Source: Acidimicrobiales bacterium
Lineage (GTDB): Bacteria > Actinomycetota > Acidimicrobiia > Acidimicrobiales > GCA-2861595
Direction: 5' to 3'
DNA: 49,327 nucleotides
Assembly: GCA_036262515.1 (NCBI GenBank)
Contig: DATAIT010000039.1
Coordinates: 1-49,327, forward strand
Both the position numbers and the translations under genes were made by a program. This document shows, one piece after another, positions 17,594 through 33,383 of the stretch (within the stretch, counting starts at the first letter, position 1; every line of letters starts with the position of its first letter). The notes below the pieces were generated by a model that was not told the DNA's origin, searched no databases, and worked only from the letters and a program-made list of their open reading frames with translations.

Positions 17594-19207
17594 ATGGTGC
17601 AAGAGGGGCGGCGCCGGCCCGTACGCCGAGCGTGGGCCCGCAAGCTCGCCGTCCTCGTCGTGTGCGCCGTGCTCGTCGGAGTGGGCGCCACCCTTGCGTT
17701 CGGCACGCTTCCCCGTGATCGCCCTCCCGACGCACACGTCGTCGGCGGCAATGCCCCGGTCAACCCACCGTCGAGCGTTGCGACCGGATATGTCGCGCAG
17801 AACTCCCCGGCCCTGGTGCTCAACCCGCGGGATCCGGCGAACCTGGCCGTGGCCAGCAGGATCGACCTGCCCCGGTTCTCCTGTGGCGTGCACGTCTCGT
17901 TCGATGGAGGCGGCACGTGGAGGCAGGCGCCGCTCGCGACTCCGCCCGACCAGACGATCGGCTGCTTCGCACCGGACGCCACCTTCGGCGCCGACGGAAC
18001 GCTCTACGTGGCATTTTCCACCTTCGGGACTGTCCCCGGCCACGGCGTCGTGCAGAGTGGCGTCTGGCTGGTCACCTCGCGCGACGGCGGGCGCTCGTTC
18101 GCCGCACCCACCAGGGCAGCGGGTCCCCTGGCGTTCCAGGTCCGTGTGGCTGCGGACCCGAGCCGCCCTGCGCGCCTCTACTTGACGTGGCTCCAGGCGA
18201 AACGGGCGAGTCCTTGGGGTTTGGCGAGCGCCGGGAACCCGATCATGGTGTCACGCTCCGACGACGGGGGCGAGACCTGGAACGAGCCTGTTCAGGCCAG
18301 CGGGCCGCAACACCGGCGAGCAGTTGCGCCCGTTCTGGCGGTCGCCGGCGGTGACGACGTGCTCCTCGGTTACGTCGACGTCGGCGACGACCGGCTCGAC
18401 TACGAAGGCGCGCACGAAGGACGGGGCGGCAATCCGTATGCGGGTCACTGGTCGATCGTGACCGCTCGGTCCTCGGACGGCGGAGCGACGTGGGGCGAGC
18501 GAGTGCTCAGCGACCGCCTCGTGCCCGTCGGCCGGTTCCTGCAGCTCTTCCCGCCGGTGCCCGCCCTCGCCGTCGACGCGACGCGGCGCCGGGCGTACAT
18601 GGCGTTTCACGATGGCTCCCTCGGGGACCCCGATGTCCTGGTCTGGGCGTCGCCGGACGGTGGGCGGCATTGGGCACCCCCGACGCGTGCGAACGACACG
18701 CCGGCGAGGGACGGAACATCCCAGGTCCTTCCAGGTCTGGCCGTTGCCCCGAACGGCCGCCTCGACCTCGTGTACTACGACCGCCGGGACGACCCGCACG
18801 ACCTTCTCAGCCAAGTGTCGTTCCAGTCGTCATTCGACGGTGGAAGGGAATTCGTACGAAGCGTTCCGTTGGCCGACAGACCGTTCGACAGTCGCATTGG
18901 TCTCGGCGCCGATCGGGACATGCCCGAGCTCGGTACCCGCCTCGGGATCGTAGCCACAGCGGCGGGGGCTCTCGCCGTGTGGAGCGACACCCGGGCCGGC
19001 ACGGCGGCGACCGGAGAGCAGGATCTGGCGCGGGCGCTGCTGGCCGTTCGCGCTCCTCTGCAGGCCTCGATCGCCTGGCGTATCGCCGGATTTCTCGTTC
19101 TGACCGGCTTGGTCGCGGGGACGGTTTCCGCCCTCCGTCGCCAGTACTTTCGGCGCACGCGAAGAGCTGGGAATAGGTGGAGGGCCACACCTATCAGTTC
19201 TGCTTGA
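17594..19207 (+). CDS. Secreted Asp-box (BNR) beta-propeller, paralogue A
   Basis: A 537-residue exported protein with an N-terminal signal anchor (KLAVLVVCAVLVGVGATLAF), a propeller with repeated Asp-boxes (V-S-F-D-G-G-G-T-W; S-R-D-G-G-R-S-F; S-D-D-G-G-E-T-W; S-S-D-G-G-A-T-W; S-P-D-G-G-R-H-W) and a C-terminal membrane helix followed by Arg-rich residues. It shares with the genes at 21240 and 31809 an opening block Q-N-S-P-A-L, a Cys in F-S-C-G-V-H-V-S, a second in I-G-C-F-A-P-D and an ending W-S/A-D-T-R. These proteins belong to the sialidase fold, but no FRIP motif is seen, so sialidase activity is not supported. It is the most divergent of the three. Confidence 0.85.
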   Translation: MVQEGRRRPVRRAWARKLAVLVVCAVLVGVGATLAFGTLPRDRPPDAHVVGGNAPVNPPSSVATGYVAQNSPALVLNPRDPANLAVASRIDLPRFSCGVHVSFDGGGTWRQAPLATPPDQTIGCFAPDATFGADGTLYVAFSTFGTVPGHGVVQSGVWLVTSRDGGRSFAAPTRAAGPLAFQVRVAADPSRPARLYLTWLQAKRASPWGLASAGNPIMVSRSDDGGETWNEPVQASGPQHRRAVAPVLAVAGGDDVLLGYVDVGDDRLDYEGAHEGRGGNPYAGHWSIVTARSSDGGATWGERVLSDRLVPVGRFLQLFPPVPALAVDATRRRAYMAFHDGSLGDPDVLVWASPDGGRHWAPPTRANDTPARDGTSQVLPGLAVAPNGRLDLVYYDRRDDPHDLLSQVSFQSSFDGGREFVRSVPLADRPFDSRIGLGADRDMPELGTRLGIVATAAGALAVWSDTRAGTAATGEQDLARALLAVRAPLQASIAWRIAGFLVLTGLVAGTVSALRRQYFRRTRRAGNRWRATPISSA

Positions 19208-19232
19208 CGCGACGGCTCCCCACCGGTACGGT
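19204..19232 (+). promoter_or_regulatory. Sigma-70-like promoter
   Basis: TTGACG (19204-19209) and TACGGT (19227-19232) are separated by 17 bases, a housekeeping-type arrangement. It starts at the stop of the propeller A gene and lies 87 bases before the GTG of the next gene, so the secreted Ig-like gene and probably 20296 downstream have their own promoter. Confidence 0.5.
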
Positions 19233-19318
19233 TTCCAGTAAGGCTCGGCGGGCCGGAGATTGTCGGTACGCCCGTGGCTCGCTCGAGCCGACGGGGTCCG
19301 CTCGAGAGGGGGCAGTCG

Positions 19319-20248
19319 GTGAGGCTGCGGAAGATGCTGGTCCTCGGGTCGCTCGGCGGAGCCGCCGTCTTGGGCGTGGCCAGTTCCGCCTGGGCCTGTG
19401 GCGAGGTTGCCGGGGTCCACGCCAGCATCAGCGTGACGCCGGCCCGAGGGCCCGCCACCACGCTCGTCCACGTCACGGGCGCCACATTCGACGCTGAAGG
19501 GAACGTCGCCATCCGGTTCGACGACACGCCTCTGGGAATGTCGACGATCGACGACGATGGGCGGTTCGTGAGCGAGGTTCGGATCCCGACCGCATCCATC
19601 GGCCAGCACGCCATCGTCGCGGTATCCGGAGATCAAACGGCCGCTTTCCCCTTCGACGTCACGGAACCGGCCACGACCAGCACCGGTGCTCCCGGCGAGA
19701 CAATCGACGATGGTGGGATCTCCGAGACCCGCACGAGCGGGCGTCTCGGACCGGTGGTGTCGGCCGTCGACCCACCGGCGCTGGCCGCCCCTGTGGCGGC
19801 GGCAGACGCGAGAGCTGCAGGACAGACCTCCGACCCCGCGCCGACAGGCGCGATCATCGCCGAGCAGGACACTGCTCGTTCACGACAGGACGGAGGCCTA
19901 GTGGCCGGTACCGGACCGCGAGGCGGGGGCGAAAGTGGCGACGCCGCCGGTGGCGGGCCACCGGATGGCGGCGGCGGGGTCGGGGCGGAGATCCGAACGA
20001 GCGTGAGTCCTCCTGCGGGCAGTGCCGAGGGCGACCTTTGGAGTGCGTTCGCTTCCGTGCGGGACGGCGACGCCCCGGCACGTGGGCTGGCGGGCCTGAA
20101 CACGCCGGGCCGTGGCGCGGAGCCGTTCCCGCTCGCCGTTGGAGCCGGCATCGGCCTCATCGGGCTGCTCGCCCTCCTGGGCGGCTTTGCCACCGCGATG
20201 CTGGGCCGGCGGCCCGTCACCGCTCGTCACGACGGGAGCGGGCAGTGA
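19319..20248 (+). CDS. Secreted Ig-like protein with disordered linker and C-terminal anchor
   Basis: A 309-residue protein from GTG 19319, behind GAGAGGGGG. The signal peptide ends S-S-A-W-A before Cys. An Ig/IPT-like domain of about 100 residues follows (I-S-V-T-P-A-R-G-P, then F-D-A-E-G-N-V-A-I-R-F-D-D). Next comes a 150-residue Gly/Pro/Asp/Ala linker, a membrane helix (AVGAGIGLIGLLALLGGFAT) and a short basic tail. The start of its mature part matches that of the small proteins at 20296 and 31329. It is probably anchored by its C-terminus, with the Cys end free outside. Function is unknown; the context is the propeller/cupredoxin island. Confidence 0.8.
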   Translation: MRLRKMLVLGSLGGAAVLGVASSAWACGEVAGVHASISVTPARGPATTLVHVTGATFDAEGNVAIRFDDTPLGMSTIDDDGRFVSEVRIPTASIGQHAIVAVSGDQTAAFPFDVTEPATTSTGAPGETIDDGGISETRTSGRLGPVVSAVDPPALAAPVAAADARAAGQTSDPAPTGAIIAEQDTARSRQDGGLVAGTGPRGGGESGDAAGGGPPDGGGGVGAEIRTSVSPPAGSAEGDLWSAFASVRDGDAPARGLAGLNTPGRGAEPFPLAVGAGIGLIGLLALLGGFATAMLGRRPVTARHDGSGQ

Positions 20249-20295
20249 GCGCGACGACGCGATGTTCGGTTGGCCAACGACACAAGGGGGATGGG

Positions 20296-20757
20296 ATGCA
20301 CACGGAACGACGTCTTCGGCGGACCGGCCGGATGTGGGTCTCTGCCGCTGCCGTGCTCGCGGTCGGCGTCCTCGCGGCCAGCGGTGCTTTTGCGTGCACT
20401 GGGACGCAGAACATCCCCACCAAGATCGTGAAGCCCCTGAGCAAGTCCGGGCCGTCCGGCACCCTCATCAAGGCGAAGGCGCCTCAGAGCAGCCTCATGC
20501 CCGTTGGGTGGAAGTTCGACCTGCTCTTCGCCGACTCGGCCCACCTCGCCGTCGACCAGGAATGCCACCATTCCGGCGTTCCCATCGGAGGACCGACGAC
20601 ATCGACCGCCGGCACCGTCGCCAACACGGGCAAGATCCCGGGGACTACCGGAAACGTCCCAGCCCTGACACCGGTCGGCCAGGCGGCCGTCTGCTTCGCC
20701 AGGACCGGGAACTACGGCGCGCTGAACACGCTTCCCGACTTCTTCACGGTCACCTGA
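20296..20757 (+). CDS. Small secreted protein, A-F-A-Cys N-terminus (family with 31329)
   Basis: A 153-residue exported protein from ATG 20296 (AGGGGG upstream). The signal peptide ends S-G-A-F-A before Cys. The mature domain shares a pattern with the protein at 31329: G-P-x-G-x-x-I, then K-F-D-L-L-F-A-D-S with L and a Cys about ten residues on, A-x-x-x-G-Q-A-A-V-C-F-A, and a final F-x-T-V-T. Two internal Cys are conserved between the two paralogues. The fold looks like a short Ig/IPT domain. It sits 48 bases behind the Ig-like gene and converges on a cupredoxin lipoprotein gene. No function is known. Confidence 0.78.
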   Translation: MHTERRLRRTGRMWVSAAAVLAVGVLAASGAFACTGTQNIPTKIVKPLSKSGPSGTLIKAKAPQSSLMPVGWKFDLLFADSAHLAVDQECHHSGVPIGGPTTSTAGTVANTGKIPGTTGNVPALTPVGQAAVCFARTGNYGALNTLPDFFTVT

Positions 20758-20762
20758 CGCGG

Positions 20763-20779
20763 CGTCGCCGAAGGCGACG
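20763..20779. terminator. Short hairpin between convergent genes
   Basis: CGTCGCC (20763-20769) pairs with GGCGACG (20773-20779) around GAA. It lies 6 bases after the stop of the rightward small secreted gene and 9 bases before the end of the leftward cupredoxin gene, so it could serve both. No U-run is present. Confidence 0.5.
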
Positions 20780-20787
20780 GGTGGGCA

Positions 20788-21243
20788 CTAGCCGACCCGC
20801 AGCTCGGAGCTCATCCCGAGCCGCGCGTGCTCGCGACCCGCGCCATCCTTGACGAAGCAGATGAAGGCGTAACGCCCGGGGGTGAGGTCGATGGCAAAGG
20901 AGCCTGTGGTGTCGGGCGGATGGACCGGTAGGTAGGCGACGCTCGGAAAGCCCATGCGCTCGGGACCCCGGAGCTGCTCGTCGATGCTGCGGGGCAGGTC
21001 CTCGGGGAGTTCCACGAGCACGATCTCGTGCGGTGACCGGCCGACGTTGCGGGCCCGCACCACGATCCTGCCTGCCACAGCGGCCGGAGTGTGGCCGAAG
21101 GCGAAGTCGCTCATGTCGACGTCGACGACGCTGGCCGGCACCGGCAGCTCGGGTGCCCGGACAGGACCACCGCAGGCAGCCACGCCGGCCGTGGTCGCCA
21201 TCGCCACCAGTCGACGCGCCCGGCGACCGCCGGTCGGTGTCAC
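20788..21243 (-). CDS. Cupredoxin-like lipoprotein, paralogue 1
   Basis: A 151-residue protein from GTG 21243, which overlaps the stop of the upstream propeller B gene (GTGA), so both are coupled. The signal peptide ends in a lipobox, G-V-A-A-C (Cys24). The domain has the copper-ligand pattern of cupredoxins: His72 in S-P-H-E-I, then Cys129, His139 and Met144 in C-F-V-K-D-G-A-G-R-E-H-A-R-L-G-M. Cys-His spacing is longer than in plastocyanin (C-x9-H-x4-M) but identical in the paralogue at 27782. Both also share E-Q-L-R and P-G-R-Y-A. A type 1 copper or electron-transfer role is inferred. Confidence 0.83.
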   Translation of the reverse strand: MTPTGGRRARRLVAMATTAGVAACGGPVRAPELPVPASVVDVDMSDFAFGHTPAAVAGRIVVRARNVGRSPHEIVLVELPEDLPRSIDEQLRGPERMGFPSVAYLPVHPPDTTGSFAIDLTPGRYAFICFVKDGAGREHARLGMSSELRVG

Positions 21244-22838
21244 GCCTCGGTCTCGGTGCTCTTGGCCGGGCGGCGGGAACGCCACAGCACGGCGCCGCCC
21301 AGCGCCGCAACGGTGCCGGCCGAGCCCAGCCAGGTGGCGAGCGGCCGGCCAGACGAGCGAGGCGCCGGGTTCCCCTCGTCGTCGAATACCACCCGGGTGG
21401 AGAACACATCCTGTTGGATCGTCTTGGCGAATGGCTTCACGCGGGTGTCCGTCCAGGCCGCTACGGCGCCCGACGCCTGGGCCAGCAGGCCCGTCCGCGA
21501 CCCCCACTCGACCAGGCCGGCGGCGGCCGGCCCGACGTATGTCTGGCCCAGACGGGTGTCGGACATTTCGGTCGTGAGCTTGAGGTTCGGCGCGAAGGTG
21601 CGGCCGGCATCGGTGGAATACGTCAGGTACACGTCGTTCGAGACGTTGGCGGGATCATTCCGGCGGTCGTAGAAGACTGCGTCCACCCGGCCGCCCGGCG
21701 ACACGTCGAGCCTCGGCTGGTACTGGTGGCGGCCGTCGCCGGCCCGGTCGTCGTTGAGACGGACGGGAGAGGCGAATCGCCCGCCGCCATCGGTCGATCG
21801 GGCGAAGAGGGCGTCCCAGTCGCCGTTGCGCGCATCGGTCCAAGCCGCGTACACCCGGTCGGCGCCGTCGACGGCCAGCGCCGGCGGTGGCATCGTGAAG
21901 ATGAGCATCACCCGCTCGTTCGGCGTCACCTCGCCGTCGACCACCGTCTCACGTGCATAGCGCCGTCCGCCGTCGGCCGACGTGGAGAGAACGAGCGACC
22001 AGGATCCCTCGTAGGTCGGGCCTTCGAGTCCGTGATAGTCGCGGGCGTCGTCGCCCAGGTCGTAGAACAGCACATGCACGACGTGGTCGGGTCCGACGGC
22101 CACCGAAGGGGCCACGGGCCGGCGGCGGTCCCGTCCGCTCACCGGCACCGGCTTGGAGAAGGTCTCGCCGCCGTCGTCGGAGTATGCGGCGACGATGGGG
22201 TTGGGGCCCTCGGGGAGGCTCCCCAGGGTCGCCGGTTCCCGGGTCTGCAACCAGACCAGGTGCAGCCTGCCTCTCGATCCCGACTCGGCATCGACAACGA
22301 GTCGCACCATGTACTGGTCGGGCCCGAGCACTCTGCGCGGCGCGCTGAACGTGCGGGCCCGGTCCGTCGACACTGTGAGGAAGGCACCCATGGGCATGTT
22401 TCCGGTGCCATGGAGGCCGACGAAGAGGTAGTAGAGGCGGCCTTCCCCGTCGAAGGCGATCTCGGGGGCATAACACTTCTCCGCACCGGGCGGCAGCTTG
22501 CTCACCGGCTGGGCTGGGGCCCAGACGCGCCCGCCGTCGGCCGAGACGTGCAGCGAGCAACCGAAGTCCGGTCCGTCCACCCGACTGGCCAGCGCGACGA
22601 ACCGACCATCGGTCGGGTCAGCCACCATCATCGGCGAGTTGTGGGCCATCTTGAGGCGCAGGTCGGACGCGGTCACCGGCATCTCCGGTAGTACCGAGGG
22701 CGGCTCGGTCACGGTGGCCACCGCACCCGCCGTCAGCGACATCCCGGCCGCAACCGCCGCCGCCCCGACCCCGAGCCAGCGGCGGCACGAGGGCGGCCGT
22801 TCGGGCAACCCGGCCTCCCGGTGCCCTCTCCATACCAC
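21240..22838 (-). CDS. Secreted Asp-box (BNR) beta-propeller, paralogue B
   Basis: A 532-residue exported protein very like the one at 31809: A-H-N-S-P-M, D-F-G-C-S-L-H-V-S-A-D-G-G, G-A-E-K-C-Y-A-P-E, L-Y-Y-L-F-V-G-L-H-G, I-F-T-M-P-P-P-A-L-A-V, A-W-T-D-A-R-N-G-D-W-D and F-Y-D-R-R-N-D-P. Asp-boxes recur through the chain. It has an N-terminal signal sequence and a C-terminal membrane helix with a basic tail. GTG 22838 is the longest start. TTG 22808, placed after GGGAGG, is a better-spaced alternative. It is the first gene of a leftward pair with a cupredoxin lipoprotein. No sialidase FRIP motif is seen; a binding or redox-partner role is more likely. Confidence 0.86.
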   Translation of the reverse strand: MVWRGHREAGLPERPPSCRRWLGVGAAAVAAGMSLTAGAVATVTEPPSVLPEMPVTASDLRLKMAHNSPMMVADPTDGRFVALASRVDGPDFGCSLHVSADGGRVWAPAQPVSKLPPGAEKCYAPEIAFDGEGRLYYLFVGLHGTGNMPMGAFLTVSTDRARTFSAPRRVLGPDQYMVRLVVDAESGSRGRLHLVWLQTREPATLGSLPEGPNPIVAAYSDDGGETFSKPVPVSGRDRRRPVAPSVAVGPDHVVHVLFYDLGDDARDYHGLEGPTYEGSWSLVLSTSADGGRRYARETVVDGEVTPNERVMLIFTMPPPALAVDGADRVYAAWTDARNGDWDALFARSTDGGGRFASPVRLNDDRAGDGRHQYQPRLDVSPGGRVDAVFYDRRNDPANVSNDVYLTYSTDAGRTFAPNLKLTTEMSDTRLGQTYVGPAAAGLVEWGSRTGLLAQASGAVAAWTDTRVKPFAKTIQQDVFSTRVVFDDEGNPAPRSSGRPLATWLGSAGTVAALGGAVLWRSRRPAKSTETEA

Positions 22839-22943
22839 CCTCCTGACAATAGGCGCGACAGACTTCTAACATGGCCTCACGAGGGAGCGGCGGCATGCCG
22901 AGGGGGAACCGCTTCGGATGCACGGGAACGCGTAGCAGGCGAG

Positions 22944-25900
22944 GTGAAAGCGAGCCAGCGGCGTCGGTCACGTGCGCTCACGGCTTGGTCCATCCTGGCG
23001 ATCGTCGCCGCGGCCACGGTGCACCCTGTCGGAGGCGTGTCCACGGCGCTCGCCGGCGACGTCGGACCCGGCACGTGGACCCCCGTTGCACCGATGGGTG
23101 AAGCGCGGTCAGGCCACACGGCGACCACACTCGACGGTCCGCAGTGCCGGCGGACGCCGCCGGTGCCCGAGTACTGCGGCAAGGTGCTCGTGATCGGGGG
23201 GGCGTCGGCTGCGGCCGGAGCGTCGGCCGAGCTGTACGACCCGGTTGCACGTTCCTGGTCGGCGATCTCCGAGCCTGCTCACGCCCGCACCGGCCACACG
23301 GCCACGCTCCTCGATGGGCCACCGTGCCGTGTGGAACCGGCGCCTTCCTACTGCGGCCGGGTGTTGGTCGTCGGCTCGAGCACCACCGACAAGGCGGAGC
23401 TGTTCGACCCGGCGGGCGGCGCCGACCCCTGGCTTCCGGCCGGCCGGCTCGGCGCTCCACGCCAACATCACGCCGCGGCACCACTGATGGACGGGCGGGT
23501 GCTCGTCATGGGCGGCGTGTCGACGGGAGCCAGCATCCTCAGCTCGGCAGAGATCTACGACCCGACGGCGGATGCCGGAGCCCAGTGGACCGCGGCCGCC
23601 GACATGCTGACACCGCGGTCGCAGTTCACCGCCACAGCGCTCGACGGTGCTGATTGCCACGGTTCACCACCGGTTCCAGCGTGGTGTGGAGACGTCCTCG
23701 TTGCGGGCGGCGACACGGCCGGTGTTCCTGGGACCGGTATCGACGGCGCAGAGCTGTTCGACGCGACCGCCGAAGGTGGGTTCGGTGCCTGGCGACCCGC
23801 CGCCGCCTTGACGACGGCGCGGCTGAACCACACGGCCACCCTGCTCGGCGGAGGCCGTGTCCTCGTCGCAGGCGACGGCCAGTCGGATTTCAGGGCCAAG
23901 ACCGCGGAAGTCTTCGATCCCGCTGTCCCCCCTGTGGACGGGGCGCTGGGGGAGGGCTCCTGGGTGCCGACCGCCGACCTCGTCGAATCAAGGCGCTTCC
24001 ACACGGCCACGCTCCTCGACGGGCCGGCCTGTCGTAGTGGCGCGCCGCCCTCGTCGTGCGGCAAGGTGCTCTTGGCCGGTGGCTCCACGACGCTCGCCTT
24101 CCGGAGCTCGGCCGAGCTCTACGACCCCGCGTCCGGAGCGTGGGTCCTGACCGAGCCCATGGGATCGCCGCGCCGGGACGGCGCCGCCTCGATGCTGGCC
24201 GACGGCACCGTGCTGGTCGCCGGCGGAGCGAACGCGTCGTCGGTCACCGAGGGAATCGCCTCGGCGGAGGTGTTCGACGCCACGTCGCTCGTGAAGCCGC
24301 CGCATGTCGCGAACGTCTGCGTGCCGGACGGAGCTGCATGCCGGACCCCCGCCAGCGGCGCCACGACCGGCGGCACCGCGGTGCGGATCACGGGTCTGGC
24401 ACTCGGCGACACCACCGCCGTCCACTTCGGCGGAACAGCAGCCTTTCACTTTGAGGTGCAGTCGCCGACAGTCGTGGTGGCCACCGCACCGGAGCATCCG
24501 GCGGCCGGAACGGTCGACGTCACCGTCACTGCTGGGGGCGGGACGTCGGCACGGTTCCCGTCCGCCACTTTCACATACGAGGAGGAAGACATTTCGGCGC
24601 TGGAGGTCACGGACGTCCAACCGGCAAGTGGCGCGGCAGGCGAGCAGACTCCCGTGCGCATCCGGGGCACGGGATTCTTTCCGGGCGTGACCGCCGTCAC
24701 CTTCGGCGACGTCGCCGCCTCAGACGTTGTCGTCATATCCGACACCGAGGTACGCGCCAGTGCTCCCGCGCTGGCCAAGGGCGCCGTCGTCGTCGGCGTG
24801 AGGACGCCGGCCGCCACGTCGCCACCGCCGGGCGCGGTCTTCACCTACGGGTCCGGTCGGTGGGTCGACGCCGGTGCGGCACGCCAGGCCCGGTACCTCC
24901 ACGTCGCCGTGCTCATCGACGGCGAACCATGCCGTCGCGCCCCGCCACCAGCGGCCTGCGGAAAGGTGCTGGTCGCCGGGGGCACGACCGACTTCGTCTC
25001 CGGCACGACCCCGTCGCTCCGCTCGGCAGAGCTGTACGACCCGGGGACGGGGGAGACGGGTTCGTTCGACGCTACCGGCGACATGGGTGCCGTCGCCGGC
25101 CGGATGGACTTCACGGCAACGCTGCTCGACGGCCCGGCCTGCCGCGCCGCAGCGCTCCCGCCGTACTGCGGTCAGGTCCTGGTCGTCGGGGGCCGCGGCC
25201 GCCACGATGATCCCGGTCTCGCGTCAGCCGAGCTGTACGACCCCGTCGAAGGGCTCTGGAAGGGGGTCGGATCCCTCCAGACCGGCCGCATGTCCCATAC
25301 CGCCACGCTTCTCGACGACGGCCGCGTCCTCGTCGTCGGTGGTGTCCCGATCGAGCAGCGGCGAAGCGAGCCGATGTCGTCGGCCGAGATCTACGACCCG
25401 GCGACGAGATCCTGGACAGCAGTCTCGTCCCTGGATTCGTGCGCGGGCCGACCGACCTCGTGTCGAGCACGAGCCAACCACACGGCCACGCTCCTGGCGG
25501 ACGGTCGTGTCCTGGTCGTCGGCGGTACAGGGGACGGCGCCGGAGCTTCGCTGAAGCCGTTGGCGTCCGCCCAGGTCTACGACCCGCGTCTCGACGAGTG
25601 GTCGCCGGTCGAGAGCCTGACCACGAACCGCTTCTCGCACACGGCCACCATGCTCGATACGCCGCCGTGCGCGCCACATTGCGGATGGGTCCTCGTGGCT
25701 GGAGGCATCGCGTCGTCCGACGATTCGGTGTTCGGCGAGGCACGTCCGGTCTACGTGCAAACAGCGGAGCTGTTCGACCCCGCGAGCGGGCACTGGGCGT
25801 CGGCGCCGTTGACCGTCGCCAGGGGCGGCCACACGGCCACGGCGCTTTCCGACGGCACGGTGCTCGTGGCCGGCGCCGACCCGACCTTCCCGTCCGCGGC

Positions 25901-27236
25901 TGCCTCGACCCCCGGCGTCCCCACCGACACAGCGGAGCTGTTCGACCCGACGGTTGGTTCGTGGCGCTCGGCGACGCCGATGACGCAGGAGCGCGGCATC
26001 CATACGGCCACTCTGCTCGACGGCCTGAAGTGCCGTGGCCCCGCTCCTCCGGCCACCTGGTGCGGGACGGTGCTCGTGGTCGGCGGGGCGGCTGCGGGTG
26101 GGAACGGGCCACCGGCGCTGGCGTCCGCCGAGCGCTACGTACCGTCGCCCGACCTCGACGCCGTCACGCCGTCCTCTGGTGCGAGCGCGGGAGGGGAGGC
26201 GATCGAGCTCTCCGGCCACGGGTTCAGCGACGCCACCACCATCACCTTCGGCGGCGTGCCAGCGGCGGCCGTCACCGTGAAGTCGTCGCAGCGGGTCGCC
26301 GCCGTGACCCCGAAGCACACGCGAGGGATGCTGCAGATCGAGGTGCTCAACCCCGGCGGCAGCTCGGCCACGACACCGCCTGCGCTTGCCCACCGGTTCA
26401 GCTTCGAGATCTCCAACCCGCCCCCTGCCATCACGGACCTGGCTGCCCGGGTGGTGGACGGCTCCGATGTCGAGTTGACCTTCTCTGCGCCGCCTTCCGA
26501 TGGCGACCTGGGTCCACCAGCGCGGGCCTTCGTCATCAAGCAGGCGGAGGCGCCCATCGAGGACAACGACGCCTTCGAACGGGCTCGAACCCTCTGCGAT
26601 CCTTGCCGCGAGTACATCCTTCCAGCAGCCGTCGGTGACCATCTCAGCCTCACCGTCCCGGGCCTCCCCCCAGGTCGCACGCACCATTTCGCCATCCGAG
26701 CGGTGAACGAGGCCGACATGATGGGAGACCTGTCGAACCCGGCCTCTGCCACGCTCGCCGATTCGGGCGAATGCGGAGCATCGCCGGCGCCGGGACCGGG
26801 GCGGGCGGTGTACCCGGCCGGTTACTCGATCGTCGGCGTGCCCGGCGGAAGCGGGGTAGCGGCCCAGTCGCCGTTGTACGGCTGGTTCGACCAGGGCGCC
26901 GGGGGCAACTACTCGATCGAGGGCGGGCAGACCCCCGTCTCCGGCGGTCGCGGCTATTACGCCTGGTTCGCCTGCCCGACCGCCGTCGAGCTCCGACCGG
27001 CGAGCCCGTCGGCCAGTTTCGGCCTCGGGGCGTATCACGCCACACTGGTGGGCAACCCGTCGGACAGGCCGGTCAACGTCACCGGCCACGACTACGCCGC
27101 CCGATGGGACCCGATGCTCGACGGTGGGACCGGCGGATACCGCGTGTCGGGCTACCGGGAGCCTCAGCGACTCGCCGTCGGTGAGGGGATCTGGGTGTTC
27201 TCCTTCACCGACACGACCGTGCGGATAGGGCCCTGA
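22944..27236 (+). CDS. Giant Kelch-repeat secreted protein with IPT and FN3-like domains
   Basis: About 1430 residues from GTG 22944, followed by a signal sequence (ALTAWSILAIVAAATVHPVG). Fourteen Kelch motifs (R-x-x-H-T-A-T-L-L-D-G, V-L-V-x-G-G, S-A-E-L-Y-D-P, W) are split into two groups of seven. Two IPT/TIG domains lie between them and one after the second. An FN3-like domain (A-I-T-D-L-A-A-R-V) and a C-terminal domain rich in Gly, Tyr and Trp end the chain. Many repeats carry an insert with two Cys (D-G-x-x-C-R-x-x-P-x-P-x-x-C-G-K-V-L-V), probably a disulfide loop. The frame is open back to 22821, but that part is not protein-like. Probably an extracellular binding or adhesion protein. 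Divergent from propeller B. Confidence 0.9.
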   Translation: MKASQRRRSRALTAWSILAIVAAATVHPVGGVSTALAGDVGPGTWTPVAPMGEARSGHTATTLDGPQCRRTPPVPEYCGKVLVIGGASAAAGASAELYDPVARSWSAISEPAHARTGHTATLLDGPPCRVEPAPSYCGRVLVVGSSTTDKAELFDPAGGADPWLPAGRLGAPRQHHAAAPLMDGRVLVMGGVSTGASILSSAEIYDPTADAGAQWTAAADMLTPRSQFTATALDGADCHGSPPVPAWCGDVLVAGGDTAGVPGTGIDGAELFDATAEGGFGAWRPAAALTTARLNHTATLLGGGRVLVAGDGQSDFRAKTAEVFDPAVPPVDGALGEGSWVPTADLVESRRFHTATLLDGPACRSGAPPSSCGKVLLAGGSTTLAFRSSAELYDPASGAWVLTEPMGSPRRDGAASMLADGTVLVAGGANASSVTEGIASAEVFDATSLVKPPHVANVCVPDGAACRTPASGATTGGTAVRITGLALGDTTAVHFGGTAAFHFEVQSPTVVVATAPEHPAAGTVDVTVTAGGGTSARFPSATFTYEEEDISALEVTDVQPASGAAGEQTPVRIRGTGFFPGVTAVTFGDVAASDVVVISDTEVRASAPALAKGAVVVGVRTPAATSPPPGAVFTYGSGRWVDAGAARQARYLHVAVLIDGEPCRRAPPPAACGKVLVAGGTTDFVSGTTPSLRSAELYDPGTGETGSFDATGDMGAVAGRMDFTATLLDGPACRAAALPPYCGQVLVVGGRGRHDDPGLASAELYDPVEGLWKGVGSLQTGRMSHTATLLDDGRVLVVGGVPIEQRRSEPMSSAEIYDPATRSWTAVSSLDSCAGRPTSCRARANHTATLLADGRVLVVGGTGDGAGASLKPLASAQVYDPRLDEWSPVESLTTNRFSHTATMLDTPPCAPHCGWVLVAGGIASSDDSVFGEARPVYVQTAELFDPASGHWASAPLTVARGGHTATALSDGTVLVAGADPTFPSAAASTPGVPTDTAELFDPTVGSWRSATPMTQERGIHTATLLDGLKCRGPAPPATWCGTVLVVGGAAAGGNGPPALASAERYVPSPDLDAVTPSSGASAGGEAIELSGHGFSDATTITFGGVPAAAVTVKSSQRVAAVTPKHTRGMLQIEVLNPGGSSATTPPALAHRFSFEISNPPPAITDLAARVVDGSDVELTFSAPPSDGDLGPPARAFVIKQAEAPIEDNDAFERARTLCDPCREYILPAAVGDHLSLTVPGLPPGRTHHFAIRAVNEADMMGDLSNPASATLADSGECGASPAPGPGRAVYPAGYSIVGVPGGSGVAAQSPLYGWFDQGAGGNYSIEGGQTPVSGGRGYYAWFACPTAVELRPASPSASFGLGAYHATLVGNPSDRPVNVTGHDYAARWDPMLDGGTGGYRVSGYREPQRLAVGEGIWVFSFTDTTVRIGP

Positions 27237-27245
27237 ACGGCCCTA
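27226..27245. terminator. Hairpin spanning both stop codons of convergent genes
   Basis: TAGGGCC (27226-27232) pairs perfectly with GGCCCTA (27239-27245) around CTGAAC. It contains the TGA of the Kelch gene in its loop and the TAG of the leftward gene in its right arm, so one structure may end both transcripts. Confidence 0.6.
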
Positions 27246-27695: not shown

Positions 27696-27781
27696 GTCTT
27701 CTACTCCCCGCCATTTTCGCCCCCAAAGCGAGGATAGCCGCCGGATTGGGATGATTCATGTCCGACGAGCCAAGGCGCGAG

Positions 27782-28198
27782 CTATCGGACGACGACCTCC
27801 GACGCCATGCCCTTGCGCGCATGAGTCTCCCCGTCGTCGGCCACGAGGAAGCACAAGAGCGCGTACCGGCCGGGCTGGAGATCCAGGGCGAAACGGCGTT
27901 CGGCCCCGGGTTGGCGGGACACGTTGGCCATGGCCGGGAGGGGCCGACGCACCGACGACCGCAGCTGCTCCGCGATGGGCGGAAAGTCAGGCGGCAAGGG
28001 AACGATCGACAGCTCGTGCGTCAGGGCGCCGCCGTTCCTGACGTCCACGACCACCCGTCCGGCGGCCATTGATGCCCGATGATCGAAGGCGAATTCGCGC
28101 ATTGTCACGTGCAACTCCGCCGGCGTCCGTCTCACCGGTGTCGCTCCCTTTCCGCCGCACGAAGCAGAAATGACCGCGGTGGGGAGTATTCCAACCAC
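27782..28198 (-). CDS. Cupredoxin-like exported protein, paralogue 2
   Basis: A 138-residue paralogue of the protein at 20788. Ligand candidates are His61 in L-T-H-E-L and Cys116, His126 and Met131 in C-F-L-V-A-D-D-G-E-T-H-A-R-K-G-M, with the same C-x9-H-x4-M spacing. I-A-E-Q-L-R and P-G-R-Y-A also match. The N-terminus (M-V-G-I-L-P-T-A-V-I-S-A-S-C-G-G) is short, with a Cys as in a lipoprotein, but the lipobox is imperfect. GTG 28198 is the first start in the frame; a longer signal peptide may be lost. The gene faces away from the LVIVD/PA-domain gene. Copper binding is inferred. Confidence 0.78.
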   Translation of the reverse strand: MVGILPTAVISASCGGKGATPVRRTPAELHVTMREFAFDHRASMAAGRVVVDVRNGGALTHELSIVPLPPDFPPIAEQLRSSVRRPLPAMANVSRQPGAERRFALDLQPGRYALLCFLVADDGETHARKGMASEVVVR

Positions 28199-28235
28199 CC
28201 AATGAGAAGAACGGCCTACTAAGTGACGGAAGCAC

Positions 28236-28264
28236 TTACGTTTCGTTTTCAGGCTCGCTAGAGT
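28236..28264 (+). promoter_or_regulatory. Sigma-70-like promoter of the LVIVD/PA gene
   Basis: TTACGT (28236-28241) and TAGAGT (28259-28264) are 17 bases apart, in a locally AT-richer stretch between two divergent genes. The start codon is 166 bases further on, leaving a long leader (28270-28429) in which I see no riboswitch or gene. Confidence 0.45.
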
Positions 28265-28429
28265 ACCTGGGCATCGGGTTCGAGGGGGCTGCGATTCGCT
28301 AGCGGTTTCTGGGGGGATCGGCGCATTTACTTTTCGCTGCGCGCCGCAATCTTCATCGGATCGCTGTCAGCTGCGCTTGCGCTCGAGCGCGTGCGACCGC
28401 ACGACGCGAGTGAAAATAGGGGGAGACCA

Positions 28430-31054
28430 ATGAGGTCCGGTCGTCTTGGACGAAGCTCCGATCCAGTCGCGCGCAACTCGTCGAGAGGGAGTCGCCGGCG
28501 GCGTTGGGGGATCGCTTCCGTCGGAGCCGTTGCTGCGGCCGTGAGCGTGTCAGCGCTCTCGCTGCCCGCGGTGGCCCATCCGGTGGGAGCTCCGCTCCCC
28601 CCAGATCCCCTGACCACCAGCGCCGAGCTCAAGCTCCTCGGTCACAACGACCTCGGAGGCAAGGGCAACCACGGCGAGGTTGCCGTGCTCGGCACCACCG
28701 CCATCGTGGCCGGAGGCATCCAGGGGTCCGGCGGTCTCCGCACGCACATGTACACCCCGTACCCGTGCGCAGGAAACAAGGTGCGCCTCGTCGACATCAG
28801 CAATCCCTACAACCCGACCCAGGTCGCCAAGATCAGTGTCCCCCTCAACCAGACTGCGCGGGACGTGGCCGCCATCAAGGTGAAGGCCATGGGCGTGTCG
28901 CCCACCACCTACAAGCTGCTCGCCGTCGCGCTCACCACGTGCGGCGCCACGGGGAGTGCGCAGGACCGTGGCCTCGAGTTCTACAACATCACCAATCCAG
29001 CGGCACCGGTGTTCCTCGGCCGGTACGTCGCCGACAAGGAGCAGTTCGCCGCCGTGGCCGCAACAGGCGTGCCCGGTCCCACCAGCAACGGCCTCCTGTA
29101 CGAGAGCAACTACGACACGAACTTCAAGTCGGCGTCGATCGAGCTGCTCGATCCCGGCGTGGCGAATTCGCCCCTCACGGTGAACGTCTCGAACCCAGGC
29201 CCGACCAACCCGCCCAGTGCGGTGGTCGTCAGCCTTGCCACCGACGCCGGCGGCGCCATCACGTCGACCGCAGCGCAGGTGCGGACGGCGATCAACGCGA
29301 ACCTGGCAGCCAAGTCGCTGCTCTTGGTGAGCATCAGCCCGACGACTGGTAGCGGCAGCGGGGTGGTCACCGCCACGGCTGCGCAGACGCTGGCCGTCCC
29401 GGCCAACTCCTGCGCCGTCCAGGGTGACTGCGCCTCGTCGATGGACTCGGTGTCCCTGGCCCAGATGCCCGACGGTCGGGTGATCGCGACCGGCACGGAG
29501 CCCTTCGCGTCGGCAAGCAACGCCGCTTCGTGCGACAACGGCCCGCTGACGTTCGCCAACGGGACCGGGACGTTTCCCAACTGCCCGTTCCCGTCGGGGG
29601 ACCTGCGCATCGTCGACGCCACCGATCCCACCAACCCGGTCCAGGTCGGTGACTTCACCCCCCGTCGCTCCGATCCTGCCGGCGCCGCGCCGATCTCCTC
29701 GGAGAACCCGGCCGTCAACGGTGGCTTCTCCCGGAACGGGTGCCGCACCTTCACCGGCATCATGAGCGCCGAGCTCAACAAGGACGGCTCGAAGGCGGTG
29801 GCCGCCGACATGGACGACGGCCTCATCAGCCTCGCCGTTCCGGCCCGGCCTGCCGGTCCTGCGCAGTTCAGCGAGGGTTCGGCGGCCAACCTGAACGCCT
29901 ATGTCGACCCGGCGCCTGCCGCCGATCGCGACACCGAGGGCAACTCGTCGTTCGCCACCTTCGCCGACAACGACAACCTCGCCCTCCTTTCCGATCAGGA
30001 CTGGATCGGTGCCGAGAGCTCCGTGGTGGTCGCCAGCAGCACCGGCGGGCCTGTCACTCCGGGGTCGTACAAGGCGTGCGAGGCGCACTTCACGCTGTTC
30101 GCTCCGAACGACACCACCCAGGTCTACCGGCATCTCGACAGCCAGGTCCCCGGCGGGCTGGGCAACAATGCTCAGTTCGTGTATGCCGGGCGCGGCTGCC
30201 CGAGCGATCCCCTGCCCAAGACCTGGACCGACACCAACGCCAACAACATCCAGGATCCCGGTGAGACGCAGTTCGTCGATCTGACCGGCAAGATCGCGGT
30301 GGTGGACCGCAACCGCTCGCCGCTCCGCTTCGGCGGCACCGGCCCGACACCCGCCAGCTGCGGGGCGTCGGACAAGACGGTGCAGATGGCGATCAACGGC
30401 GCCATCGCCGTGGTGGTCGACGCCCAGCAGGCCGGTGGCTATGCGTTCGCCTTCGACGGCGCCCCGGCCGGTCAGACCATTCCGATGGTCACCATGGACC
30501 GCCCGGCGGCCGACAACCTGATCGTCAGCCTGTGCCGGGACGTCGTCCAGACGGGCGCCTCGGGAACGACGGGCAACGGCGTGTGCGTCACGTCCGACAC
30601 CGTCACCGGAAGGCTCGTCGACAGCGCTCCCACCGGCGGACGCAGCCTCTGGGGCGCCATGCACGTCATCGACCTGAACACCAACGCCCAGGTCGGCGAG
30701 TACCGAACGCCTCGGTCGCAGCAGTTCCCGCCGCCGGACCTCGGTGTCTACTCCGTGCACCACGCGGTGGCCAAGGGCAAGCGGGCGTACGTGGCGTGGA
30801 ACTCCGACGGCCTGCGTGTGCTCGACCTGACGAACCCGTCATCGCCAGTGGAGACCGGCCACTTCATCGCCGCCGCCCCGCCGTACCCGGGCGGGCTCGT
30901 CGACCCGAACGGGATCCTGCCGACGCAGTCCTACGTCGTCGGGGTCGCCATCGCCGGGCCGAATCCCTACGGGGGATGCAACATCGCTGTCACCGACATA
31001 CACGCAGGCCTGTGGATCGTCCGGGACGCCGGCGCACCGGCCGGCACGTGCTGA
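28430..31054 (+). CDS. Large secreted LVIVD-repeat protein with PA domain
   Basis: An 874-residue protein from ATG 28430, behind GGGGGAGA. The signal peptide ends P-A-V-A before H-P-V-G, so the mature protein may start with His. The body has LVIVD-type propeller strands (V-R-L-V-D-I-S-N-P-Y-N-P-T-Q-V; L-R-I-V-D-A-T-D-P-T-N-P-V; L-R-V-L-D-L-T-N-P-S-S-P-V). A protease-associated domain lies near D-L-T-G-K-I-A-V-V-D-R-N, and just before it is a calcium-type loop D-T-N-A-N-N-I-Q-D-P-G-E. No C-terminal anchor is seen: it ends G-A-P-A-G-T-C. It is probably released. Several Cys are scattered. No catalytic site was recognised. Confidence 0.87.
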   Translation: MRSGRLGRSSDPVARNSSRGSRRRRWGIASVGAVAAAVSVSALSLPAVAHPVGAPLPPDPLTTSAELKLLGHNDLGGKGNHGEVAVLGTTAIVAGGIQGSGGLRTHMYTPYPCAGNKVRLVDISNPYNPTQVAKISVPLNQTARDVAAIKVKAMGVSPTTYKLLAVALTTCGATGSAQDRGLEFYNITNPAAPVFLGRYVADKEQFAAVAATGVPGPTSNGLLYESNYDTNFKSASIELLDPGVANSPLTVNVSNPGPTNPPSAVVVSLATDAGGAITSTAAQVRTAINANLAAKSLLLVSISPTTGSGSGVVTATAAQTLAVPANSCAVQGDCASSMDSVSLAQMPDGRVIATGTEPFASASNAASCDNGPLTFANGTGTFPNCPFPSGDLRIVDATDPTNPVQVGDFTPRRSDPAGAAPISSENPAVNGGFSRNGCRTFTGIMSAELNKDGSKAVAADMDDGLISLAVPARPAGPAQFSEGSAANLNAYVDPAPAADRDTEGNSSFATFADNDNLALLSDQDWIGAESSVVVASSTGGPVTPGSYKACEAHFTLFAPNDTTQVYRHLDSQVPGGLGNNAQFVYAGRGCPSDPLPKTWTDTNANNIQDPGETQFVDLTGKIAVVDRNRSPLRFGGTGPTPASCGASDKTVQMAINGAIAVVVDAQQAGGYAFAFDGAPAGQTIPMVTMDRPAADNLIVSLCRDVVQTGASGTTGNGVCVTSDTVTGRLVDSAPTGGRSLWGAMHVIDLNTNAQVGEYRTPRSQQFPPPDLGVYSVHHAVAKGKRAYVAWNSDGLRVLDLTNPSSPVETGHFIAAAPPYPGGLVDPNGILPTQSYVVGVAIAGPNPYGGCNIAVTDIHAGLWIVRDAGAPAGTC

Positions 31055-31075
31055 CCTGGAGAGCATGATGGTTCG

Positions 31076-31114
31076 GGGGTGAAGGACCGGCTGGCTCCTC
31101 CGGTTCTTCACCCC
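31076..31114 (+). terminator. Strong rho-independent-like hairpin
   Basis: GGGGTGAAGGACCGG (31076-31090) pairs with CCGGTTCTTCACCCC (31100-31114), 15 pairs with one G-T wobble, around a 9-base loop, and is followed by GATTTCCC. It lies 21 bases after the stop of the LVIVD/PA gene and separates it from the next promoter. Confidence 0.85.
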
Positions 31115-31222
31115 GATTTCCCATATCGCAGACGTCATGACGACAACAATGAGGCGAGATCTTCGATCCTCTATTTTCTTTATTCTGTCTCGTCTTCTCC
31201 ACGGTATTTTGATTTCCAGCTC

Positions 31223-31252
31223 TTGACGTACCTGGGCTGCTACGGCTAAAAT
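31223..31252 (+). promoter_or_regulatory. Strong sigma-70-like promoter
   Basis: TTGACG (31223-31228) and TAAAAT (31247-31252) are 18 bases apart, in the most AT-rich stretch of the window. Transcription would start near 31259, before the gene at 31329, and could continue into propeller C. This also argues against a start at 31257 for that gene. Confidence 0.65.
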
Positions 31253-31328
31253 CGGCATGGATCGCCAGTTCTCCGCCGGGCCGGTCCAGGGGGCGTTTCG
31301 GGCTCCGTCAACGGAAGGATGGAGGACC

Positions 31329-31754
31329 ATGAGAGAAGTTTCCATGCCGGGCCGCGGACGACGGAGGCTGGTGGTGTCGTCGGCGGCAGTCGCAGCCGTA
31401 CTCAGCGCGGCGTCCGCCGCCTGGGCGTGCACCTTCTCCGGCGGCAGCCAGACCTACGTCGGGCCCACCTGGGGCCCGCCGGGCTCGAACATAGTTGCCA
31501 GCGGCGCGGGCGCAACCCCCGGAGTGAAGTACCAGCTGCGATTCGCCGACTCCGTCGTCTTGGCGAACACGTCCAACCTGTGCCGGATGAACGGCGTCAT
31601 CCTCGTCAACAAGCTGGCCGGATCCAGTGGATACATCCCGAACACAGCGGCCGTCATCCCCCTCGCTGCGGCACAGGGGAACGGGCAGGTGTGCTGGGCG
31701 CAGAAGCTGAACCCGAACAGCGCACTCACACCGGCGCTCTGGACCGTCACCTGA
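31329..31754 (+). CDS. Small secreted protein, A-W-A-Cys N-terminus (family with 20296)
   Basis: A 141-residue exported protein. ATG 31329 is 3 bases behind GGAGG; ATG 31344 is the alternative, and 31257 is excluded by the promoter position. The signal peptide ends S-A-A-W-A before Cys. The mature part has W-G-P-P-G-S-N-I, then K-Y-Q-L-R-F-A-D-S with L and a Cys about ten residues later, A-A-x-G-N-G-Q-V-C-W-A, and it ends L-W-T-V-T. These positions match the paralogue at 20296. It precedes propeller C by 54 bases and is likely in one transcript with it. An Ig-like secreted accessory protein is the best description. Confidence 0.8.
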   Translation: MREVSMPGRGRRRLVVSSAAVAAVLSAASAAWACTFSGGSQTYVGPTWGPPGSNIVASGAGATPGVKYQLRFADSVVLANTSNLCRMNGVILVNKLAGSSGYIPNTAAVIPLAAAQGNGQVCWAQKLNPNSALTPALWTVT

Positions 31755-31808
31755 TCCGGTCGTCCTGATCGCCTGGCCGGCTGGCGGCGGCCAACGTCGG
31801 GACGAGTC

Positions 31809-33383
31809 GTGAACGCCACGATGACCGCGGTGCTCACTGCGGTCATCGTCGCGTTCGGCGTTCCCGCGGCCGGCGTCGCCCGGGCGCCGGCGGAGATCCG
31901 ACTCCACCCGGACGTCCCCGTGACGGCCGTCGACATCCGATTGCCGGCATCGCAGAACTCCCCGGCACTCGCAGCCGATCCCACGGACCCGAGCTTCGTC
32001 GTCCTCGCCAATCGGATCGACGCCCCGGACTACTCGTGCGCGCTCCAGCTCTCACACGACGGCGGGATGACGTGGCTGCCGGCCAGGCCCGTGCCAGTGC
32101 TTCCGGCGGGAGCCGAGAAGTGCTATGCCCCCGAGGTCGCTTTCGACGATGCGGGCGTTCTCCACTATCTCTTCGTGGGGCTGCATGGGCGGGGCAACGT
32201 CCCCATGGGCGCTTTCCTCGTCACGTCCCGGAACGGCGGGGTCCGCTTCAGCGAGCCGCGCGAGGTTCTCGGGCCGTTCTCGTTCGCCGTCCGCATGGCG
32301 ATCGATCGCTCTCTCGGGAAGCACGGACGTCTCCACCTGGTGTGGCTGGCGGCTAGCGGCCCTCCTCCCACGGGCGGCCTTCCATCGGGCGACAATCCGA
32401 TCCTCACCGCATTTTCCGACGACGGCGGCCGGACGCTGTCCAAGCCACAGAGACTGAGCGATCCGTCACGGCCACGAGCGGTTGCCCCGGCCATCGCCAT
32501 TGGGCCTGATCACGCCGTTCACGTCGCGTATTACGACCTCGTCGACGACGCGGTCGACTACCAGGGCCTCGAGGGCCCGACATGGGGAGGAACGTGGTCC
32601 CTCGTCGTCTCCACCTCGCGCGATGGCGGCGTGTCCTTCGACCCGGGAACGGTTGTCGATGCGGAGATCACTCCGCCTGAGCGGGTCATCCTGATCTTCA
32701 CCATGCCGCCGCCGGCACTTGCCGCCGGCCCTGCCGGTGATGTGTACGTTGCCTGGACCGACGGACGCAACGGCGACTGGGACGTGCTGCTGCGGAGGTC
32801 CGCCGACGGCAGCCGCTGGAGCGATCTCGTCAGGGTCAACGATGATCTCCAGGGCAACGGCCGCCATCAGTACCTTCCCCGCTTGGCCGTCGCCCCGGGT
32901 GGTCGGCTCGACGTCGTTTTCCACGACCGGCGAACCGATCCGGAGAACCTGCGCTACGACGCGTACTTCACGACATCCGACGACGCGGGGCGGACGTTTT
33001 CGGCGAACGTGCGTCTCAGTGCCGAGAGCTCTGACTCGCGGACGGGCGCCCGGTACCTCGTGCCCTCGGCCAAGGACCTCGTCGACGTCGGCTCACGCGT
33101 GGGTCTCATCGCCAGCGACGACCGGACCGTGGCCGCTTGGGCCGACACGCGCAACACCTTCGGTCCCCCGGATCTCGTCGCTGGCCCGGTTGGCCAGGAC
33201 ATCTACGCCGCCACCGTGACGTTCGGCAGCGCGCCGGTCTCTCCGTCCGCCGGCGCCGCGAACCGAGAACGCGGGGGGAACGCATTGGCACCGCTCGTCG
33301 GCGTCGGCGCGGCCATCGTCGCCGTCGCCCTCGTGTCCCTCGCATGGCGCCGCCGAGCGCACGCCCGTCGACCGACCGGCTGA
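31809..33383 (+). CDS. Secreted Asp-box (BNR) beta-propeller, paralogue C
   Basis: A 524-residue protein closely similar to paralogue B over its whole length (Q-N-S-P-A-L, D-Y-S-C-A-L-Q-L-S-H-D-G-G, G-A-E-K-C-Y-A-P-E, H-Y-L-F-V-G-L-H-G, I-F-T-M-P-P-P-A-L-A, A-W-T-D-G-R-N-G-D-W-D, F-H-D-R-R-T-D-P). GTG 31809 gives a signal peptide (LTAVIVAFGVPAAGVA). The C-terminus is a membrane helix (APLVGVGAAIVAVALVSLAW) followed by a basic tail. Two Cys in the opening blades are kept in all three paralogues. It is encoded directly behind a small secreted protein. Sialidase activity is not supported by the motifs seen. Confidence 0.86.
   Translation: MNATMTAVLTAVIVAFGVPAAGVARAPAEIRLHPDVPVTAVDIRLPASQNSPALAADPTDPSFVVLANRIDAPDYSCALQLSHDGGMTWLPARPVPVLPAGAEKCYAPEVAFDDAGVLHYLFVGLHGRGNVPMGAFLVTSRNGGVRFSEPREVLGPFSFAVRMAIDRSLGKHGRLHLVWLAASGPPPTGGLPSGDNPILTAFSDDGGRTLSKPQRLSDPSRPRAVAPAIAIGPDHAVHVAYYDLVDDAVDYQGLEGPTWGGTWSLVVSTSRDGGVSFDPGTVVDAEITPPERVILIFTMPPPALAAGPAGDVYVAWTDGRNGDWDVLLRRSADGSRWSDLVRVNDDLQGNGRHQYLPRLAVAPGGRLDVVFHDRRTDPENLRYDAYFTTSDDAGRTFSANVRLSAESSDSRTGARYLVPSAKDLVDVGSRVGLIASDDRTVAAWADTRNTFGPPDLVAGPVGQDIYAATVTFGSAPVSPSAGAANRERGGNALAPLVGVGAAIVAVALVSLAWRRRAHARRPTG

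Follow-up and report, generated by a model that had tools for sequence, protein, structure and literature searches.

Cupredoxins usually partner respiratory or photosynthetic chains or act as metal chaperones, and one of them, auracyanin, is also membrane-associated. NosZ unites a propeller and a cupredoxin in one protein, its CuZ propeller being His-rich with seven blades and its CuA domain holding CxxxC. Binding of Cu and Fe has been reported for the cupredoxins of EfeO, and in Streptomyces Cu travels from the lipoprotein ECuC to Sco and then to GlxA (PMC4736821). The locus analyzed here lies on a stretch of 49,327 nucleotides from an Acidimicrobiales bacterium (GenBank assembly GCA_036262515.1, contig DATAIT010000039.1), hereafter called the window, which is contig C39 of a 3.41 Mb draft genome that is 97.8% complete in 129 contigs. 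Between 17.6 and 33.4 kb it encodes Asp-box propellers (propA, propB and propC), cupredoxins (cup1 and cup2), small Cys-first secreted proteins (small1 and small2) and giant propeller-type proteins. These components are of known kinds, and their fixed combination appears to be new. A library search covering few subscription papers returned no paper on a cupredoxin with an Asp-box and a propeller, nor any on this gene set, the sole match concerning iron oxidation (PMC10654088); this agrees with the original prediction, made from the letters and open reading frames of the window, whose author knew of no described system of this composition. The gene set probably encodes an uncharacterised surface machine moving electrons or copper.

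Genes were called with our own gene caller on draft genomes, and genome-wide counts rest on profile searches of the genomes. All the genes in this region had a coding-like codon composition, and every gene named in the original prediction was found in its place by Pfam profiles, codon composition and structure modelling, including the giant Kelch and LVIVD proteins, which matched Pfam Kelch_1/TIG and LVIVD/PA. The region consists of two diverged four-part modules, each with a small protein, a propeller, a cupredoxin and a giant propeller protein, beside a different pair formed by propA and a PGS-type protein. Module B (20296-27236) comprises small1, cup1, propB and the Kelch protein, and module C (27782-33383) comprises cup2, the LVIVD protein, small2 and propC. 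PropB and propC were 53% identical and each was 40% identical to propA, while identity was 45% between cup1 and cup2 and 39% between small1 and small2. In a maximum likelihood tree of 51 rows, propB, propC and 12 others formed one 14-member clade (support 100/98) spread across three bacterial families. In contrast, propA fell in a separate 14-member clade (100/99) whose neighbours are FtsH-like proteases, SBP_bac_5 peptide-binding proteins and PGS proteins; of these partners, only the PGS protein remains beside propA in the window. Given the different clade and neighbours of propA, the window holds two module copies plus a separate propeller pair. The propellers had been described as triplicated, and three paralogues are indeed present, but propA lies outside the repeated unit, and treating the three as one set was rejected. 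PropB grouped with copies on contig C24 of the same genome and in another genus (97/87), and propC branched elsewhere. B and C therefore appear to be no recent local duplicates, a recent tandem duplication of propB and propC being unsupported by the tree.

The linkage of propellers and cupredoxins was analyzed in the window's genome, its family (6 genomes), its class (198) and its phylum (396). Cupredoxins scoring above 80 bits were counted as close, a threshold chosen after the scores had been seen; the more distant cupredoxins scored at most 65 bits, which leaves a gap between the two groups. Thirteen of the 14 clade propellers had a close cupredoxin no more than three genes away or fused to them, and the contig carrying the fourteenth (G331 C46) is 8 kb long. 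The cupredoxin was directly adjacent and on the same strand in 9 of the clade loci, with gaps of -4 to 173 bases. Counted from the other side, 13 of the 16 close cupredoxins were fused to a clade propeller or lay within 4 kb of one. The window's genome (3.4 Mb) encodes 10 propellers of the family and four such cupredoxins, three of which were found no more than 4 kb from a propeller of the B/C clade; such flanks account for 0.8% of the genome (p ~2e-6), and in the three richest genomes the probability of the linkage arising by chance was 2e-6, 1e-7 and 4e-7. A close cupredoxin was present in 5/5 genomes with a clade propeller and in 0/7 with only other clades (p 0.0013). Contig C24 carries a second island with a propeller, a cupredoxin, a Kelch giant, a three-Cys protein, an SBBP/DUF7948 giant and a PGS protein. 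Many propeller-cupredoxin pairs occurred in two genomes of the same family (G199 and G200), and pairs also occurred in G307 and G331 from other families of the phylum, the order small-propeller-cupredoxin being maintained in G331 (L176) and G200 C56. The linkage is no local accident, and the propeller-cupredoxin module itself is very probably real. Recurrence in three families supports the predicted functional module of propeller, cupredoxin and small Cys-first protein; rare co-occurrence, which had been named as grounds for abandoning it, was not what the neighbourhoods gave, with 13 of 16 cupredoxins and 8 of 10 small proteins near clade propellers. The propeller family was absent at 1e-20 from 193 of the 198 sampled class genomes, the other five being the window's genome and four with weak matches, and a search for the same pair beyond the phylum found no propeller of the family within flanks of up to 10 kb at 21 cupredoxin loci from Gemmatimonadota, Nitrospirota, Chloroflexota and Actinomycetota.

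Table 1. Genes of the propeller-cupredoxin region and the evidence for each
Gene product	Module	Coordinates	Strand	Features and evidence
Propeller A (propA)		17594..19207	+	Six Asp-boxes; hydrophobic segments at both termini; BNR_2 7.4e-12; placed by the tree in the FtsH/SBP/PGS-linked clade, outside the cupredoxin clade
PGS/TIG-type protein		19334..20248	+	One Cys after AWA (signal-peptide end); C-terminal transmembrane segment; GxPGS_dom 5.8e-5 and TIG 0.0019, both under cut-off
Small1, secreted three-Cys protein	B	20296..20757	+	A-x-A-C plus two Cys in alignment; genome-wide match 1.1e-38
Cupredoxin 1 (cup1), lipoprotein	B	20788..21243	-	Lipobox VAAC; H..C-x9-H-x4-M; start overlaps propB stop (GTGA); AlphaFold2 model and PDB matches
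Propeller B (propB)	B	21240..22838	-	Pfam BNR_2/BNR; cupredoxin-clade tree; C-terminal transmembrane helix (AlphaFold2 helix 499-520); Foldseek sialidase-type propellers
Giant Kelch/TIG secreted protein	B	22821..27236	+	Kelch_1 1.2e-46; TIG 1.9e-28; 25 Cys
Cupredoxin 2 (cup2)	C	27782..28198	-	Lipoprotein-like start SASC; H-C-H-M ligands; 45% identical to cup1
Giant LVIVD-repeat protein with PA domain	C	28391..31054	+	LVIVD 7.9e-11; PA 3.1e-4; 14 Cys
Small2, secreted three-Cys protein	C	31329..31754	+	Alignment; genome-wide match 1.7e-31
Propeller C (propC)	C	31809..33383	+	BNR_2/BNR; cupredoxin-clade tree; C-terminal transmembrane helix; 54 bases after small2

No Pfam match was obtained for cup1 or cup2, and profiles of these cupredoxins likewise found no relative among NCBIfam and PDB sequences, so the structure was used for the assignment. 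The AlphaFold2 model of cup1, built with nine relatives, had a pLDDT (predicted local distance difference test) of 89 and a pTM (predicted template modelling score) of 0.78. Foldseek matched it to auracyanin and rusticyanin with a probability of 1.00, VIA gave Z 10-12.5, and its best PDB matches were the cupredoxin domain of EfeO (Z 12.5), a Cu-bound cupredoxin of B. anthracis, auracyanin and rusticyanin. The Greek-key cupredoxin fold of the model, together with a conserved His-Cys-His-Met set, bore out the cupredoxin call of the original prediction. H71, C128, H138 and M143 were invariant in the alignment of the genome's four cupredoxins, and the set was kept in all intact propeller-linked cupredoxins of other genomes; Gln replaces the first ligand His in a degraded copy (G199 C73). 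The ligand spacing, C-x9-H-x4-M, exceeds those of plastocyanin, azurin and rusticyanin and comes close to the one in copper nitrite reductase (NirK). A lipobox Cys was recognised by inspection in cup1, L018 (VASC) and L178 (MGGC), the motif of cup2 being weaker. Judging from the model, cup1 and cup2 appear to be members of the cupredoxin superfamily with a type 1-like (T1) site that would presumably support copper and redox chemistry.

The coupling of one propeller-cupredoxin pair by GTGA was read in the sequence at the propB/cup1 junction (GCGTGACACC), and the 54-base spacing noted between a small protein and a propeller was measured for small2 and propC. A GTGA overlap was found independently in G199 C34 (L142) and a TGATG overlap in G199 C61 (L140). 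On contig C69 of G200 (L150 15329-17416), propeller and cupredoxin form one 695-residue protein in which the propeller (3-483) is followed by a transmembrane (TM) segment (462-480), an Arg-rich loop, a second TM segment (519-537) and the cupredoxin (542-662), a TM helix thus standing in place of the lipoprotein anchor. By the positive-inside rule this hairpin is predicted to put both domains outside the cell, and the topology of the fusion also tells that of the unfused pairs. The fusion lends indirect support to a physical contact between propeller and cupredoxin. The distances of paired propellers and cupredoxins were correlated (Mantel r 0.35, p 0.039, n=10), which is modest evidence of co-divergence.

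We favor a surface relay, with a probability of roughly 45%, in which a client docks on the propeller and the cupredoxin passes it electrons or copper. The six-bladed Asp-box propeller would be held on the outside of the membrane by its C-terminal TM helix and the lipoprotein cupredoxin would be anchored beside it. The propeller may act not as an enzyme but as a platform on which a secreted client docks, likely the three-Cys small protein and/or the giant protein, and the cupredoxin would exchange single electrons with the docked client, or hand it copper, for example in oxidative maturation of the client. In its favor are the clade-wide pairing, the junction overlaps, the fusion, the kept gene order, the retained ligands, the paired divergence, the missing FRIP motif of the main propeller clades and the neighbourhoods of the small family. 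Several observations weigh against this relay. Three close cupredoxins had no propeller (G000 C57, G199 C66 and the degraded copy G199 C73), and the module contains no cytochrome, oxidase or dehydrogenase to finish an electron path. The clade profile at 1e-30 matched in only 8/396 phylum genomes, so the system is rare. The Cys content of the giant partners was uneven, 0-2.4% against a background of 0.73%, and oxidative folding is therefore not specially favoured; the Mantel signal is also weak. It is rather doubtful that the module is an undescribed surface redox machine in which the tethered Asp-box propeller receives a three-Cys or giant client, which is then oxidised or reduced by a T1-type copper domain on a lipoprotein or in a fusion; if true, these bacteria would have a copper-based route to mature or wire their surface proteins.

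A tentative alternative, on balance unlikely, is the capture or trafficking of copper (or ferrous iron), the cupredoxin acting as a metal chaperone kept by the propeller and the small protein near a surface metalloprotein or importer, like EfeO or ECuC. The top structural match of cup1 at Z 12.5 is to a metal-binding domain, the reported Cu and Fe binding of EfeO cupredoxins and the Cu hand-over by Streptomyces ECuC offer precedents (PMC4736821), the lipoprotein topology fits, and an ArsP_1/Cu-Zn efflux-like permease adjoins a relative of propA. However, no EfeU/EfeB, Sco, P-type ATPase or M75 domain was recognised in the module loci, and a complete set of T1-type ligands points to electron transfer more than to storage.

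Both small proteins of the window contain three Cys, the first immediately after the AxA end of the signal peptide, and the family alignment showed an invariant A-x-A-C plus two further Cys. A genome-wide profile search for the small family gave 10 strong members; 9 of them were already in the search profile, but the result shows that the family has few others. Eight lay within 5 kb of a clade propeller; the remaining two were one located 15 kb off on the same contig and a 91%-identical copy on a 5.5 kb contig. The PGS/TIG protein adjoining propA is a third Cys-first protein, absent from the list of the original prediction. Most loci also encode a giant secreted propeller protein, which is of the DUF7948/SBBP type in six and a Kelch protein in the window, C24, G199 C61 and G331, while an LVIVD giant adjoins propC. 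The giant may be of the Kelch, LVIVD, SBBP/DUF7948 or DUF5122 type, and the Kelch and LVIVD giants of the window seem to be an interchangeable fourth part of the module, not bystanders. The repeats of the window Kelch protein hold Cys-pair insertions of the type DGPxCRxxPxPxYCGKVLVxGG.

These partners bear on another explanation, in which the cupredoxin and small all-beta domains serve for packing in a structural or adhesive coat, an S-layer-like coat of giant propellers, with copper incidental. Every part is exported, the L176 giant of G331 has three SLH domains, the giant partners vary freely between loci, and the small proteins have invariant Cys. Yet all four copper ligands stay invariant while cupredoxin identity drops to ~45%, which would not be expected of a purely structural domain, and we consider such a coat improbable.

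The propellers contain 5-6 Asp-boxes each and have a six-bladed fold. The propB model was poor (pLDDT 66.5, from three sequences), so only the fold class was drawn from it; its top Foldseek matches were bacterial sialidases and related GH/PL propellers. A role of the propellers as sialidases or as glycoside hydrolases of another kind, in a cluster that degrades surface glycans, is very unlikely. BNR_2 matches, the Foldseek results and PDB profile matches to sialidases of up to 4e-10 speak for it, but the PDB matches are local, over the Asp-box blades, and no NCBIfam glycosidase model reached its cut-off for the propellers. Among 43 propellers screened, the FRIP motif ([FY]R[ILVM]P), which lies at the N-terminal side of GH33 sialidases, was found in none of the main clades and only in two divergent outliers; without it these are no standard sialidases, and the sialidase reading was rejected because both this motif and any curated glycosidase match were missing. 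The active site of GH33 sialidases has an Arg triad, a Tyr/Glu nucleophile pair and an Asp acid/base; the propeller alignment has invariant Arg and Asp columns, which may or may not correspond to these, and no invariant His. Accidental clustering of paralogous secreted-protein genes by duplication and hitch-hiking, to which a genome rich in propellers (10 of the family) and the short contigs of metagenome-assembled genomes might lend color, is effectively refuted by the clade tree, the adjacency, overlaps and fusion in three families and the per-genome probabilities (2e-6, 1e-7 and 4e-7).

PGS-type proteins (window 19334-20248; L016, L018, L120-L123, L144 and others) usually contain exactly one Cys, which directly follows a signal peptide ending in A-[WFY]-A, and in most of them a TM segment lies at the C terminus; their lone Cys with an aromatic residue at -2 is unlike a normal lipobox. 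FtsH-like proteases adjoin propellers outside the cupredoxin clade (L157 4810-8349, L121 6922-9591, L120, L147 and L150 1479-4886), and in several of these proteases two or three tandem AAA domains precede the M41 peptidase domain, an unusual architecture for FtsH. An ArsP_1-type permease and a protein with DM13, an electron-transfer domain, are encoded directly downstream of propellers in L147 (11739-13753) and L183 (2774-4731), and a DM13-type gene is found close to propellers at four further loci, among them L176 (5783-6589), where it follows the cupredoxin. Another propeller group (L017 3662-7153, L131, L135 and L154) belongs to a conserved block that also encodes an SPW protein and three MinD/NifH-like ATPases, followed in L017 and L154 by a Tad-pilus-like cluster. 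Propellers of the same family also stand in tandem, two overlapping in G000 C36 (L019 4734-7639) and three consecutive in G466 (L184 10084-15052). In the window, a Thioredoxin 2-like gene without signal peptide (33567-33995) follows propC on the same strand after 183 bases; none was seen beside other modules.

The host bacteria carry many propellers of unknown use, and the present analysis gives a concrete partner set, one propeller clade pairing with a copper protein and another with FtsH-like proteases. Gene order, overlap and fusion here tie the cupredoxin firmly to a secreted three-Cys protein and to a surface propeller that does not look like an enzyme, and if the copper site is real this would be a new kind of cell-surface copper chemistry.

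Among the known systems, the EfeO-type cupredoxins of EfeUOB have the same exported fold class as cup1 (Z 12.5). In contrast to them, cup1 and cup2 are stand-alone lipoproteins of 138-151 aa that lack M75, their partner is an Asp-box propeller, and no EfeU or EfeB was recognised in the loci. The GlxA/CslA copper pathway of Streptomyces, with Sco, ECuC and DtpA, likewise combines a surface Kelch-fold protein with an extracytoplasmic copper lipoprotein in an actinobacterium (PMC4736821). However, the window Kelch protein scored 61.8 against the GlxA model NCBIfam NF052501 (cut-off 800), and a GlxA-type copper oxidase was rejected on that score; the giant partner swaps with LVIVD or SBBP types, Sco and DtpA are missing, and the constant partner is the six-bladed Asp-box propeller. 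NosZ is similar in that propeller and cupredoxin occur in one chain, as in the G200 C69 fusion, whereas the propellers here have six Asp-box blades and no invariant His, the T1-like site has a single Cys, and a TM hairpin separates the two domains. Blue copper carriers such as auracyanin, rusticyanin and plastocyanin have the fold and the H-C-H-M set in common with these cupredoxins, which differ in the longer C-x9-H-x4-M spacing and have no respiratory partner nearby. Finally, the Asp-box/BNR sialidase-like propellers (GH33 fold, sortilin and Ycf48) are alike in their Asp-box repeats and six-bladed fold, but those of the window are without FRIP, are tethered by a C-terminal helix and have a fixed cupredoxin partner.

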